Positions 30,454 through 36,606 of a stretch of 64,000 bases of DNA are shown in pieces. The stretch's first letter is position 1; each line of letters starts with the position of its first letter. The stretch covers positions 1,302,001 through 1,366,000 of the forward strand of contig NZ_RBKS01000001.1 in the NCBI RefSeq assembly GCF_003634555.1, written 5' to 3'. Below the pieces are notes generated by a model. That model worked only from the letters and a program-made list of their open reading frames with translations. It had not been told where the DNA came from and ran no database searches. The DNA comes from Frondihabitans australicus. GTDB taxonomy: Bacteria > Actinomycetota > Actinomycetes > Actinomycetales > Microbacteriaceae. The position numbers and the translations under genes were made by a program.

Positions 30454-33400
30454 ATGGCTCTCACGCCAGCGCACCAGACTTTCAGCAGCATCCCGAAGGC
30501 CCAGGGTCTCTACGACCCCAGCCTCGAGAAGGACGCCTGCGGCCTTGCCATGGTCGCGACCCTCCGTGGCACCCCGGGCCACGACATCATCGACGCCGCC
30601 CTCGGCGCCCTCCGCAACCTCGAGCACCGCGGCGCGGTCGGCTCGGACGCCGGCACGGGCGACGGCGCCGGCATCCTGATGCAGGTCCCCGACGCTTTCT
30701 TCCGCGCCGTCGTGCCCTTCAACCTGCCGGAGGCCGGCCGCTACGCCGTCGGCATCGGCTTCCTGCCCACCGACGACTCCGAGCGCGCCGAGATGAAGGC
30801 CGCCATCGAGGCCATCGCCGCCTCCGAGCAGCTGAGCGTCCTCGGCTGGCGCGACGTGCCGGTCCGGGCGCAGGAGCTCGGCAACCTCGCCCGCGCAGCC
30901 ATGCCCGCGTTCGAGCAGCTCTTCGTGGCCCACGCCGCAGCCGACGGTGTGACGCCGCTCGCCGGCATCGAGCTCGACCGCCTGGCCTTCCGCCTGCGCA
31001 AGAGGGCCGAGCGCGAGCTGGAGGCGTACTTCACCTCCCTGTCGAGCCGCACCATGGTCTACAAGGGCATGGTCACGACCCTGCAGCTCGAGCCGTTCTA
31101 CCCCGACCTCTCCGACGAGCGGGTCGCGTCCAAGCTCGCGATCGTGCACTCGCGCTACTCGACCAACACGTTCCCGTCGTGGCCGCTCGCTCAGCCGTTC
31201 CGCATGATCGCGCACAACGGCGAGATCAACACGGTGCGCGGCAACCGCAACTGGATGCGCGCGCGCCAGTCGCAGCTCGAGTCCGAGCTGATCGGCGACA
31301 TGCGGCCGCTGCTGCCGATCGTCAGCCCGGGCGCCAGCGACTCGGCCTCGTTCGACGAGGTCGTCGAGCTCCTGAGCCTGACCGGCCGCTCGCTGCCGCA
31401 CGCCATCATGATGATGGTGCCCGAGGCGTGGGAGAACCAGGTCGGGATCGACCCCGTGCTCCGCAACTTCTACGAGTACCACTCGATGCTCATGGAGCCG
31501 TGGGACGGCCCGGCGGCCATCACGTTCACCGACGGCTCGCTCGTCGGCGCCACGCTCGACCGCAACGGCCTGCGCCCCGGCCGCTACCTCGTCACCGACG
31601 ACGGCCTCGTCGTGCTCGCCAGCGAGATCGGTGTGCTGCCGGAGATCGACCAGTCGAAGATCGTTCGCAAGGGCCGTCTGCGCCCGGGCAAGATGTTCCT
31701 CGTCGACACCGAGGCTGGTCGCCTCATCGAGGACGACGAGATCAAGAGCGAACTCGCGTCGAGCGAGGCGTACGGCGAGTGGCTCGAGATGAGCCGCATC
31801 CACCTCAAAGACCTCCCGGAGCGCGAGCACATCGTGCACACCCCGGCTTCCGTGACCAGGCGTCAGCGGACGTTCGGGTACACGGAGGAAGAGGTTCGGA
31901 TCCTGCTCACCCCCATGGCGAAGACCGGCGCCGAGCCGCTCGGCGCGATGGGCAGCGACACCCCGATCGCCGTGCTCTCCGACCGGCCGCGCCTGCTGTT
32001 CGACTACTTCACCCAGCAGTTCGCGCAGGTGACCAACCCGCCGCTCGACTCGATCCGCGAGTCGGTCGTGACGAGCCTCGGCATGGGCCTCGGCCCCGAG
32101 CGCAACCTGCTGGCGGCGACGCCGGAGCACGCGCGCCAGGTGATCCTCGACTTCCCGGTGATCGACAACGACGAGCTCGCGAAGATCCAGCACATCGACC
32201 CGCGGCCAGGATCGCGCCTCACGGCCACGATCAAGGGGCTGTACCGCGTCGACAAGGGTCCGCGCGCCATGGAGGAGCGCATCGCCGCGATCTGCGCCGA
32301 GGTCGACGAGGCCATCGAGAACGGCACCGAGCTGATCGTGCTCTCCGACCGCGACTCGACGGCCGACCTCGCGCCGATCCCGTCGCTCCTGCTCGTCGCG
32401 GCGGTGCACCACCACCTGATCCGCACCGAGAAGCGCATGAAGACCGGTCTGATCGTCGAGGCCGGCGACGTCCGCGAGGTGCACCACGTGGCGACGCTGA
32501 TCGGCTACGGCGCGTCGGCGATCAACCCGTACCTCGCGATGGAGACGTGCGAGAACCTCGTCCGCAGCGGCATGATCACCGGCATCTCGCCCGAGCAGGC
32601 CGTCAAGAACGTGATCAAGGCGCTCGGCAAGGGCGTCCTCAAGATCATGTCGAAGATGGGCATCTCGACCGTGTCGAGCTACGCGGCCGCCCAGGCGTTC
32701 GAGGCCGTCGGCCTCAGCCAGCAGTTCATCGACACCTACTTCACCGGCACCTCGACGCGCCTCGGCGGAGTCGGCATCGACGTGGTCGCGGCCGAGAACG
32801 CCGAGCGCCACCTCAGCGCGTACCCGGCCGACGGCGCCACGAGCGCGCACGAGCGCCTGCAGACCGGCGGCGAGTACCAGTGGCGCCGCGAGGGTCCGCC
32901 GCACCTCTTCAACCCCGAGACGGTGTTCCGCCTGCAGCACGCGACCCGGTCGGGCCGGTACGACATCTTCCGCGAGTACACCAAGCTCGTCGACGACCAG
33001 GCCGAGAACCTCATGACCCTGCGCGGGCTGTTCACGCTGCGCACCGGCACGCGTCCCGCGGTGCCGCTCGACGAGGTCGAGCCCGTCTCGTCGATCGTCA
33101 AGCGGTTCTCCACCGGCGCGATGAGCTACGGCTCGATCTCCCGCGAGGCCCACGAGACGCTCGCCATCGCGATGAACCGCCTCGGCGGCAAGTCGAACAC
33201 GGGCGAGGGCGGAGAAGACGTCGACCGCCTCCTCGACCCCGAGCGCCGCAGCGCGGTCAAGCAGGTCGCGTCGGGCCGATTCGGCGTGACGAGCATGTAC
33301 CTCACGCACGCGACCGACATCCAGCTCAAGATGGCGCAGGGCGCGAAGCCGGGCGAGGGCGGCCAGCTGCCTCCGTCCAAGGTGTACCCCTGGGTCGCGC

Positions 33401-35031
33401 GCACGCGTCACGCGACGCCGGGAGTCGGCCTCATCTCGCCGCCCCCGCACCACGACATCTACTCGATCGAAGACCTCAAGCAGCTGATCTTCGACGTGAA
33501 GCGCGCCAACCCGACCGCCCGCGTCCACGTGAAGCTCGTGTCGCAGTCCGGCATCGGCGCGGTAGCTGCGGGCGTGACGAAGGCCCTGGCCGACGTCGTC
33601 CTGGTCTCCGGCCACGACGGCGGAACAGGAGCCAGCCCGCTCAACTCCCTCAAGCACGCCGGCACGCCGTGGGAGATCGGCCTGGCCGAGACGCAGCAGA
33701 CGCTCATGCTGAACGGCATGCGCGACCGCGTCGTCGTCCAGGTCGACGGACAGATGAAGACGGGCCGCGACGTCATCGTCGCCGCGCTCCTCGGAGGCGA
33801 GGAGTTCGGGTTCGCGACGGCCCCGCTCGTGGTGAGCGGGTGCATCCTGATGCGCGTCTGCCACCTCGACACCTGCCCCGTGGGCGTCGCGACGCAGAAC
33901 CCCGAGCTGCGTGCGCGCTTCTCGGGCAAGGCCGAGTACGTCGTCAACTTCTTCGAGTTCCTGGCGCAGGAGGTGCGCGAGTACCTCTCCGAGCTCGGCT
34001 TCCGCTCGCTCGACGAGGCCATCGGCCACAGCGAGCTGCTGGGCGTCGACCGCGCCGTCGACCACTGGAAGGCGTCGGGTCTCGACCTCGAGCCCGTGCT
34101 CGTCGGGCCGGAGTTCGCCGACGACGAGCCGCGGCGCAACCGTGTTCCGCAGGACCACGAGCTCGAGAAGCACTTCGACAACCAGCTGATCCACGCCACC
34201 GCCGAGGTGCTCGAGAAGGGCGGCCAGGTCTCGCTGACCCTGCCGATCCGCAACACCGAGCGCGCCGTCGGCACGATGCTGGGCCACGAGGTGACCGTCC
34301 GCCACGGCGAGAACGGCCTGCCGCAGGGCTCGATCGACGTGACGCTCACCGGATCCGCCGGGCAGTCGCTCGGCGCGTTCCTCCCGGCCGGCATCACGCT
34401 GCGCCTCGAGGGCGACAGCAACGACTACGTCGGCAAGGGCCTGTCCGGCGGCACGATCGTCGTGCGTCCGCCCGCGGGTGCCGGCTTCGTGCCGGAGGAG
34501 AACGTCATCGCCGGCAACGTGATCGGCTACGGCGCGACGCAGGGCAGCATGTTCATCCGCGGCATCGTGGGCGAGCGGTTCCTCGTGCGCAACTCCGGCG
34601 CCACCGCCGTCGTCGAGGGCGTGGGAGACCACGCGCTCGAGTACATGACGGGCGGCCTCGCGCTGATCCTGGGCCCCACGGGTCGCAACCTCGGAGCGGG
34701 CATGTCGGGCGGAACCGCCTACGTGCTCGGGCTCGAGCGCGACAACGTGAACGAGGACTCCCTGACGACCGGCGAGCTCCTGCTGCAGGAGCTGGGGAGC
34801 GCCGACCTCGAGATCGTCACCGACCTCCTCGAGAAGCACCTCGCGGAGACCGGATCCGGCCTCGCGGAGCGCCTCCTGGCCGACGGCGAGGCCCTCGCAT
34901 CCAAGTTCACGAAGGTTCTGCCGCGCGACTACGCCGCGGTCATGGAGACACGCCAGACGGCTGTCGACGAGGGGCTCGACCCCGACGGCGACGAGGTCTG
35001 GAATCGAATCATGGAGGTTACCGGTGGCTGA
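30454..35031 (+). CDS. gltB: glutamate synthase large subunit
   Basis: 1525 aa. With GltD it makes two glutamates from glutamine and 2-oxoglutarate using NADPH. The N-terminal amidotransferase nucleophile is Cys29 (KDACGLAMV), so a 28-residue propeptide must be removed. The FMN synthase domain covers about residues 850-1200, with the 3Fe-4S cysteines in [15 protein letters not shown] (about residues 1130-1144), followed by the C-terminal beta-helix domain. GAGGA precedes the ATG. The C-terminus [13 protein letters not shown] is copied in the repeats just downstream. Confidence 0.98.
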
Positions 35032-35092
35032 CACGAACGAGGTCTGGAACCGGCTGTGCCCATCAAAATCCCAGGAGGTGACCGGTGGCTGA
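35024..35092 (+). CDS. 22-aa mini-ORF 1 between gltB and gltD
   Basis: GTG 35024 overlaps the gltB stop by 8 nt. The encoded peptide begins [10 protein letters not shown] and ends SQEVTGG. It echoes both the GltD start (MADP) and the GltB end (DEVWNR...EVTGG). GGAGG lies upstream of the GTG. Because 61 is not a multiple of three, the repeats shift frame, so the unit ends at its own TGA rather than extending gltB. Whether the peptide is stable is unknown; its most likely role is to carry ribosomes from gltB towards gltD. Confidence 0.5.
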
Positions 35093-35153
35093 CACGAACG
35101 AGGTCTGGAACCGGCTGTGCCCATCAAAATCCCAGGAGGTTACTGGTGGCTGA
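35085..35153 (+). CDS. 22-aa mini-ORF 2, same peptide as mini-ORF 1
   Basis: GTG 35085 overlaps the mini-ORF 1 stop by 8 nt, and its own TGA (35151-35153) overlaps the gltD GTG by 8 nt. AGGAGG lies about 7 nt before its start. The protein sequence is identical to mini-ORF 1; the two nucleotide differences are in third codon positions (Val and Thr codons). Confidence 0.5.
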   Translation: MADTNEVWNRLCPSKSQEVTGG

Positions 35154-36606
35154 CCCGAAGGGCTTCCTCAAGGTCCAGAAGCGCGAGCTCCCGCAGCGTC
35201 GCCCCGTCTCGGTCCGTCTCATGGACTGGAAAGAGGTCTACGAGCAGCAGGAGTCCGGCGAGCTCCGCCGGCAGGCCGGCCGCTGCATGGACTGCGGCGT
35301 GCCGTTCTGCCATCAGGGCTGCCCCCTCGGCAACCTGATCCCCGAGTGGAACGACCTCATGTGGCGCGGCGAAGGCCGTCAGGCCATCGAGCGTCTCCAC
35401 GCGACGAACAACTTCCCGGAGTTCACCGGCCGCCTGTGCCCCGCACCCTGCGAGGCGTCCTGCGTGCTGGGCATCAACCAGCCCGCGGTGACGATCAAGC
35501 AGGTCGAGGTGTCGATCATCGACCAGGCCTTCTCGAACGGCTGGGTCACGCCGCACCCGCCGGAGCGCCTCACCGGCAAGACCGTGGCGATCGTCGGATC
35601 CGGCCCCGCCGGCCTCGCCGCCGCGCAGCAGCTGACGCGCGCCGGCCACACCGTGGCCGTGTACGAGCGCGACGACCGCATCGGCGGCCTCCTGCGCTAC
35701 GGCATCCCGGACTTCAAGATGGAGAAGAAGCAGATCGAGGCCCGCCTCGCCCAGATGCAGGCCGAGGGCACCCGCTTCCGCGCCGGCGTCGAGATCGGCA
35801 AGGACATCTCGTGGGACGACCTGCGCGCGCGCTACGACGCCGTCGTGGTCGCGACCGGCGCGACGGTGCCGCGCGACCTGCCGATCCCGGGCCGCGACCT
35901 CTCGGGCGTGCACTTCGCCATGGAGTACCTCGTCCAGCAGAACAAGGCCGGCGCCGGCGACCAGGTCGCCGACCAGATCACGGCCGAGGGCAAGCACGTC
36001 GTCGTCCTGGGCGGCGGCGACACCGGAGCCGACTGCATCGGCACCGCGCACCGCCAGGGCGCCCTGAGCGTCACGAACCTCGCCATCGGCAAGCAGCCGC
36101 CTCTCGAGCGTCCGTCGCACCAGCCGTGGCCGACTCAGCCGACGCTCTTCGAGGTCTCGAGTGCGCACGAGGAGGGTGGCGAGCGGGTGTACCTCGCGTC
36201 GACCGTCGAGTTCCTGAGCAACGAGGTCGGCGAGGTGCGCGCCATCCGCGTCGCCGAGACCGAGTACATCGACGGGCGCCGCGTGCCGAAGTCGGGCACC
36301 GAGCGCGAGATCCCGGCCGACCTGGTCCTCCTGGCGCTGGGCTTCACAGGCCCCGAGAGCGAGACGCTCGAGAGCCAGCTCGGCGTGCCGTTCGATGAGC
36401 GCGGCAACGTCGAGCGCGACGGCCAGTACGAGACCAGCGAGCCGGGCGTCTTCGTGACCGGCGACGCCGGCCGCGGCCAGTCGCTCATCGTCTGGGCAAT
36501 CGCCGAGGGCCGCGCCACCGCGTCGGCCGTCGACCGGTACCTCGAGGGCTCGACCTCGCTGCCCTTCCCGGTCAAGCCGACCGACCGCGCCATCTCCGTG
36601 ATCTGA
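35146..36606 (+). CDS. gltD: glutamate synthase small subunit
   Basis: 486 aa from GTG 35146 (MADPKGFLKVQKREL), chosen over upstream in-frame GTG codons at 35056 and 35117 because those read through the repeat and give a tail unlike GltD. The N-terminal Cys clusters CMDCGVPFCHQGCP and CPAPCEASC (about residues 46-110) bind 4Fe-4S centres; the FAD site is VAIVGSGPAGLAAAQQL (about residues 147-163) and the NADPH site VVVLGGGDTGADC (about residues 286-298). It feeds electrons to GltB. Confidence 0.97.
   Translation: MADPKGFLKVQKRELPQRRPVSVRLMDWKEVYEQQESGELRRQAGRCMDCGVPFCHQGCPLGNLIPEWNDLMWRGEGRQAIERLHATNNFPEFTGRLCPAPCEASCVLGINQPAVTIKQVEVSIIDQAFSNGWVTPHPPERLTGKTVAIVGSGPAGLAAAQQLTRAGHTVAVYERDDRIGGLLRYGIPDFKMEKKQIEARLAQMQAEGTRFRAGVEIGKDISWDDLRARYDAVVVATGATVPRDLPIPGRDLSGVHFAMEYLVQQNKAGAGDQVADQITAEGKHVVVLGGGDTGADCIGTAHRQGALSVTNLAIGKQPPLERPSHQPWPTQPTLFEVSSAHEEGGERVYLASTVEFLSNEVGEVRAIRVAETEYIDGRRVPKSGTEREIPADLVLLALGFTGPESETLESQLGVPFDERGNVERDGQYETSEPGVFVTGDAGRGQSLIVWAIAEGRATASAVDRYLEGSTSLPFPVKPTDRAISVI

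Follow-up and report, generated by a model that had tools for sequence, protein, structure and literature searches.

Mini-ORFs overlapping stop to start between gltB and gltD in Frondihabitans australicus and related Microbacteriaceae: a probable translational relay

Mycobacterial interspersed repetitive units (MIRUs), reportedly described by Supply et al. in 1997, are present in tandem copies of variable number. Here, we analyzed a tandem repeat of comparable layout between gltB and gltD, the genes for the large and small subunits of glutamate synthase, in a 64,000-nucleotide stretch of the Frondihabitans australicus genome (contig NZ_RBKS01000001.1, positions 1,302,001 to 1,366,000; hereafter, the window). 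The two genes are joined there by two mini open reading frames (mini-ORFs), and comparison with relatives indicates that such inserts probably act as a translational relay that keeps gltD coupled to gltB, with units gained and lost by slippage.

Like MIRUs, the gltB-gltD insert is a short, tandemly repeatable unit at an operon junction in the direction of the genes (61 bp; two copies in the window, three in locus L206, and five in locus L222). According to the available part of a review (PMC12548453), a MIRU also contains a small ORF overlapping the neighboring ORFs at its ends, as was found here in 94 of 94 inserts, one of which (L210/L300) has a frameshifted second copy. The same part describes MIRUs, which are dispersed, as apparently mobile and repetitive, with a spacing of -4 nt at the coupled downstream start, whereas the overlap with gltD is 8 nt and, in the three genomes tested, the gltB-gltD unit occurred nowhere but at this junction. 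Moreover, unlike MIRUs, the gltB-gltD units have the junction itself as at least part of their source, and their sequences diverge freely. Compared by description rather than by MIRU sequence, the gltB-gltD relay appears to work like a MIRU but is not classed as one.

Gene pairs coupled by termination-reinitiation, as presented in the accessible portions of PMC6728339 and PMC10666635, likewise combine a stop/start overlap with an internal Shine-Dalgarno (SD) site and encode subunits of one heteromeric enzyme. These are direct gene-gene overlaps, whereas one to five non-conserved mini-ORFs intervene between gltB and gltD. The arrangement defining this class, a stop and a start that overlap or lie within a few nucleotides of each other, was found at gltB-gltD. 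In the upstream short ORFs and bicistronic designs covered in the available part of PMC12548453, it is also the translation of the short ORF, not its peptide, that serves the next gene; those ORFs are located upstream of a gene or are engineered, whereas the present ones lie between operon genes and can be repeated in tandem. The intercistronic short ORF mgtQ, between mgtC and mgtB, promotes downstream translation as well, but in the portion of PMC8092293 at hand this involves acidic codons and alternative stem-loops, whereas neither peptide conservation nor excess RNA structure was found here. A literature search by title and abstract start, in which subscription papers were poorly covered, yielded no report of mini-ORFs between gltB and gltD.

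The junction in the window has the following features.

30454-35031, + strand: gltB, glutamate synthase large subunit, 1525 aa, upstream partner (ORF listing; name recognized from sequence)
35013-35017, + strand: GGAGG, SD-like site within the gltB end, ahead of the mini-ORF 1 start (sequence)
35024-35031, + strand: GTGGCTGA, gltB stop/mini-ORF 1 start, 8-nt overlap (sequence, ORF listing)
35024-35084, + strand: 61-bp repeat unit 1 (sequence, Tandem Repeats Finder)
35024-35092, + strand: mini-ORF 1, 22 codons, GTG start (ORF listing)
35073-35078, + strand: AGGAGG site ahead of mini-ORF 2 (sequence)
35085-35092, + strand: GTGGCTGA, mini-ORF 1 stop/mini-ORF 2 start, 8-nt overlap (sequence, ORF listing)
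35085-35145, + strand: 61-bp repeat unit 2, with two differences from unit 1, both synonymous (sequence, Tandem Repeats Finder)
35085-35153, + strand: mini-ORF 2, 22 codons, peptide identical to that of mini-ORF 1 (ORF listing)
35134-35139, + strand: AGGAGG site ahead of gltD (sequence)
35146-35153, + strand: GTGGCTGA, mini-ORF 2 stop/gltD start, 8-nt overlap (sequence, ORF listing)
35146-36606, + strand: gltD, glutamate synthase small subunit, 486 aa, GTG start, downstream partner (ORF listing; name recognized from sequence)

The order of gltB and gltD is conserved in relatives. In the window, the chain runs from gltB through two ORFs of 22 codons to gltD via three 8-nt GTGGCTGA stop/start overlaps. 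The two 61-bp repeats, the 8-nt overlaps, the two synonymous differences (GTGACC versus GTTACT), and the AGGAGG site in each unit had been pointed out in an earlier note on this DNA, and all were borne out by the sequence and the ORF listing, with a GGAGG site ahead of mini-ORF 1. Tandem Repeats Finder reported an array at 35013-35159 with a period of 61, 2.4 copies, and a match of 95 %. Its score of 273 was the highest of any tandem repeat in the 64-kb window; the next scores, 79 and 77, belonged to sub-periods of the same array, followed by 67 elsewhere in the window. The genome assembly consists of a single 4.04-Mb contig. The earlier note had also stressed that TGA falls exactly on the next GTG despite the unit length of 61 bp. 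This is true, but any tandem duplication of such a junction will show it as long as the unit length is 1 mod 3 and no stop comes earlier; the window genome alone is therefore weak evidence, and the force of the argument comes from the relatives.

Junctions were read in collections containing one genome per species. A survey located 169 junctions, including that of the window, among 173 loci (L019, L027, L177, and L180 were not located; by eye, L019 ends with GTGGCTAA, a direct overlap). A gltB match was present in 374 of the 398 family genomes, and the survey was drawn mostly from the better of these matches, not at random; seven located order-level genomes served as outgroups. Two genus sets, g100 (Agromyces-type) and g31 (Curtobacterium-type), whose genus assignments are inferred, were picked because inserts had been seen there. 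A gltB match was present in 59 of 60 and 60 of 60 of their genomes, and 52 and 53 junctions were read, 7 and 5 of which were already in the survey, respectively (G477 and G482 of g31 were left out). The pooled set comprises 268 genomes, namely, the window's own, Microbacteriaceae relatives, and the 7 outgroups, six rows having been removed beforehand as duplicates with checked identity. A named set of 45 loci was obtained by a frame-free pattern scan of a named genome collection (84,980 species by its description) and includes Agromyces, Curtobacterium, Leifsonia, Naasia, Humibacter, Schumannella, a Rhodoglobus metagenome-assembled genome, and records titled Microbacteriaceae; we take all of these genera to be Microbacteriaceae.

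Among the pooled junctions, 173 had a direct 8-nt gltB/gltD overlap, 89 had a long insert, and 6 had a gap of 1-13 nt; the corresponding numbers in the survey were 136, 27, and 6, respectively. The direct overlap was found in all seven outgroups. Within the window's genus (seven genomes), five junctions were direct, L007 had one 22-codon insert, and the window had two units. The direct overlap is probably the ancestral state, because it is the commonest and is found in all seven outgroups. Deleting both repeats from the window restores exactly this state, as the earlier note had stated.

All 94 distinct inserts of the pooled set and the named loci join the gltB stop to the gltD start by ORFs with 8- or 4-nt overlaps. 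They consisted of 86 single mini-ORFs of 16-55 codons, 7 arrays, and L119, in which a 22-codon ORF is entered by a 1-nt overlap or via a 4-codon ORF. The overlap on the gltD side was 8 nt in 94 of 94 insert junctions, with GTGGCTGA, ATGGCTGA, and TTGGCTGA in 64, 29, and 1 of them, respectively, and the overlap on the gltB side was 4 nt in 11. Single inserts with an 8-nt upstream overlap (n = 75) had 22 different lengths, all 1 mod 3, and those with a 4-nt upstream overlap (n = 11) had 5 different lengths, all 2 mod 3. The lengths ranged from 43 to 160 bp, 61 bp being the commonest (29 of the 75 inserts of the 8-nt type). The variety of lengths offers rough protection against the effect of shared ancestry, each length change being a separate frame-keeping event. 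In L290, the mini-ORF contains short tandem repeats in frame (ADTTARPDR repeated), a further way of growing in length without loss of the frame. No interior stop was found in frame in the single inserts (0 of 1259 codons), compared with 23 of 1270 and 19 of 1345 codons in the other two frames, in which 21 and 15 of the 86 inserts, respectively, hold a stop.

In the survey, 27 of 27 long inserts were linked at both ends, the window being a chain of two, against a mean of 0.40 per junction for random inserts of similar length and composition (p 1.5e-11, uncorrected for kinship). The same was true of 28 of 28 inserts among the 52 Agromyces-type junctions and 36 of 36 among the 53 Curtobacterium-type junctions. 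The last unit, taken alone, was intact in 44 of the 45 named loci; the exception, L210, was scored as linked in the chain test via an extra 4-codon ORF (45 of 45). Clearly, the feature is real, recurrent in the family, and selected for frame. The idea in the earlier note that the junction was duplicated and coupling was kept agrees with the linkage of all 94 inserts.

These features can be accounted for by a relay of ribosomes. In the ancestor, the 8-nt gltB/gltD overlap (GTGGCTGA) would let ribosomes ending gltB begin gltD. DNA would have been added at the junction, at least partly by duplication of the junction, and inserts would be tolerated only as an open mini-ORF that takes ribosomes at the gltB stop and releases them at the gltD start, so that the window would hold two relays in series. 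Translation of gltD would depend on this hand-over by termination-reinitiation, aided by the GGAGG site of each unit. The unit ends share a junction motif of approximately 18 nt (SD plus stop/start), which may provide a precise substrate for slippage. Slippage between copies of this motif would add or remove whole mini-ORFs while the chain stays intact, which fits the two-, three-, and five-unit arrays and the many direct junctions.

Across the inserts, the frame, its openness, and the overlaps at both ends were conserved, whereas length, copy number, and peptide varied; GGAG was present ahead of gltD in 90 of 94 insert junctions and 167 of 173 direct junctions. The available text of PMC10666635 reports that gaps of about 20 nt nearly abolish coupling in H. 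volcanii reporters, that a 38-nt gap lowers coupling in E. coli by 80-90 % or fully, and that overlapping gene pairs are enriched for subunits of heteromeric complexes. Given this sensitivity to gaps, an untranslated 61-bp insert should uncouple gltD, whereas a translated insert that restores the overlaps should not. The frame, openness, overlaps, and SD site, but not the peptide, would be kept because a translated insert preserves coupling.

Several observations weigh against the relay. A gap of 1-13 nt replaces the overlap in 6 of the 268 genomes, and in vitro a 2-nt gap cost only 5, 20, and 70 % of coupling in three E. coli pairs (PMC10666635, available text), so an exact overlap is not always needed. 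The second unit of L210/L300 (C. flaccumfaciens Sample7_18) has a 1-nt deletion and a stop 3 nt before the gltD start, yet it survives. To judge from the sequences, most units have a strong SD site of their own, so gltD could start de novo, and the frame would then be less important. In addition, the counts are only partly independent, as relatives share ancestry. Insert presence required a minimum of only 14 changes, 9 of which were forced by well-supported branches, on a gltB-gltD tree with 91 rows from an insert-enriched sample; this tree excluded six named loci with short sequences as well as the 501-base loci and treated short-gap rows as direct.

The number of mini-ORFs varied from 0 to 5 between relatives. 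Two-unit arrays were found in the window, L275, L280, L292, and L210/L300 (with the frameshift), a three-unit array in L206 (junction same as L198), and a five-unit array in L222 (same as L321). Since these arrays of two, three, and five units, with frames that are not random, occur in independent assemblies, the comparison across related genomes suggested in the earlier note shows that they are not an assembly artefact. The two units of L280 have diverged, and arrays can therefore persist. A single ORF of 55 codons, still ending on gltD, results in A. terreus L240 from the fusion of two units that read as 60 bp.

The variation in copy number bears on the tuning of the GltB:GltD ratio suggested in the earlier note, an alternative that we consider possible but unlikely. 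In this alternative, a fixed share of ribosomes would get through each reinitiation, the GltD:GltB ratio would depend on how many mini-ORFs there are and how long they are, and slippage would be a heritable, reversible tuner. Besides the range of 0 to 5 copies, the near identity of units within arrays suggests that several lineages changed recently, and unit starts overlap the preceding stops. Since the coupling signal and the unit boundary coincide, a locus-bound array of this kind might conceivably be a heritable translational rheostat, shifting GltD:GltB in whole steps with the operon unbroken. However, a constant ratio would be expected of GltB and GltD as partners in a complex, and the single-insert lengths of 43 to 160 bp reveal no obvious set point, though 61 bp is the commonest.

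It is less probable still that the translated insert provides ribosome cover, preventing Rho-dependent polarity or mRNA decay between the genes. Such cover would likewise select open, in-frame inserts and not a peptide, but alone it does not require exact 8- or 4-nt overlaps at both ends or an SD site before gltD, and a gap of 40-60 nt is short for Rho loading. RNA structure masking the gltD SD site was also rejected: excess stability was not found (z of +2.29 for the window; mean z of +0.65 for 47 junctions, 3 below -1 and 21 above +1), and the SD site was equally unpaired in both junction types. Its mean unpaired probability was 0.32 in both the 47 insert and the 80 direct junctions, and that of the start codon was 0.34 and 0.44, respectively.

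A functional micropeptide, for example, a regulator or assembly factor of glutamate synthase, is very improbable. Similar units do occur in several genera, and the most frequent length is 22 codons (29 of the 75 single inserts of the 8-nt type), but purifying selection on the mini-ORF amino-acid sequence was not found in 41 within-group pairs by the ratio of nonsynonymous to synonymous differences (pN/pS). The ratio was 1.28 for the mini-ORF interior, above those of the wrong frames (0.82 and 0.87), compared with 0.06 for 80 codons at the gltD start in the same 41 pairs and 0.34 for the gltB end in 39 pairs, two pairs with L205 being left out. Lengths vary from 16 to 55 codons, 173 of the 268 genomes have no insert, and the same DNA is read in different phases. 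The window unit was identical to the units of C. pusillum L207 and C. flaccumfaciens UCD-AKU L234 at 28 of 35 and 26 of 33 aligned interior nucleotides, respectively, with none in the same codon phase, and to that of A. salentinus L222 at 30 of 34, with 19 in the same phase. In the alignment with the frameshifted second unit of L210, 32 of 34 interior bases were in the window's phase. Because homologous units are read in different codon phases, compensating frameshifts appear to have altered the peptide and kept the frame, and the second unit of L210 would be an uncompensated step. The functional short peptide, which the earlier note had also considered, was thus rejected on the basis of the pN/pS of 1.28 and the phase shifts between homologous units.

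Against each of six units from other genera, the interior alignment of the window unit scored better than all 1000 shuffles. In a comparison with 20 units, at most 5 of 500 shuffles were as good for 15 of them; for the remaining five, L217, L227, L007, L212, and L043, the numbers were 89, 144, 428, 65, and 434 of 500, respectively. L007, the lone other insert in the window's own genus, is among those not resembling the window's. Since five of the 20 units did not stand out from shuffles in this way, the inserts need not all share one origin. In several ATGA-type inserts (Leifsonia sp. CL147, Humibacter, and bin RM56), the beginning copies the head of gltD (SDPKGF or SDPRGF), whereas likeness to the gltB end (VWTR...EVTGG) is seen in many 61-bp units from Agromyces and bin FW021; separate origins are therefore likely. 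At its end, the window mini-ORF is similar to the GltB C-terminus (EVWNR...EVTGG), with five residues added. The earlier note had read this as a copy of that terminus; the resemblance stands, but the unit is not simply a fresh copy, and the two copies appear to be a recent doubling of an older unit detectably similar to Agromyces and Curtobacterium units. This likeness weakens an origin wholly from the GltB end of F. australicus itself.

No match to the window unit better than E 0.8 was found outside gltBD in the window genome, and none better than E 0.4 was found elsewhere in the L222 and L206 genomes; a dispersed element was rejected for these three genomes. A scan of the window and the 45 named loci based only on ORF overlap listed no chain with 8-nt overlaps at both ends other than those at gltB-gltD, but it was too noisy as a background, because shadow ORFs in G+C-rich genes yield many 4-nt chains. 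Hardly credible, finally, is an unselected by-product in frame by chance, or an assembly artefact: although one third of random lengths are in frame, high G+C makes stops rare, and the null reaches 0.40 per junction, the length classes (22 lengths all 1 mod 3 and 5 all 2 mod 3), the 27 of 27 linked survey inserts, the arrays in independent assemblies, and the single-contig window genome argue against it.

The 94 inserts are a natural experiment on translational coupling, in which frame and hand-over were kept and the peptide was ignored by evolution. The relay gives a clear prediction on the dependence of GltD upon GltB translation, and natural sequences of 43 to 305 bp with one to five units could be used for measuring serial reinitiation in Actinobacteria. 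Some short ORFs from ribosome profiling may be relays, not genes.

Some minor features were observed at these loci. In the genus with code g79, the distance from the gltB stop to the gltD start was 2-3 nt in L097, L117, and L144, with a changed tail and without the 8-nt overlap, and L077 had a 3-nt gap. The open frame at the gltB end was only 866 aa in L033 (G001) and 998 aa in L034 (G005), compared with 1527 aa in four others of the same genus, which may reflect a sequencing error or a frameshift. In 46 of the 60 g31 genomes, a second match with roughly 45-50 % identity to the GltB C-terminus was found elsewhere, and many Curtobacterium-type genomes seem to carry a gltB-like paralogue. In the ORF listing of the window, the gltD frame is open upstream of 35146 to a GTG at 35056 inside mini-ORF 1; therefore, judged on the window genome alone, a longer GltD is possible.

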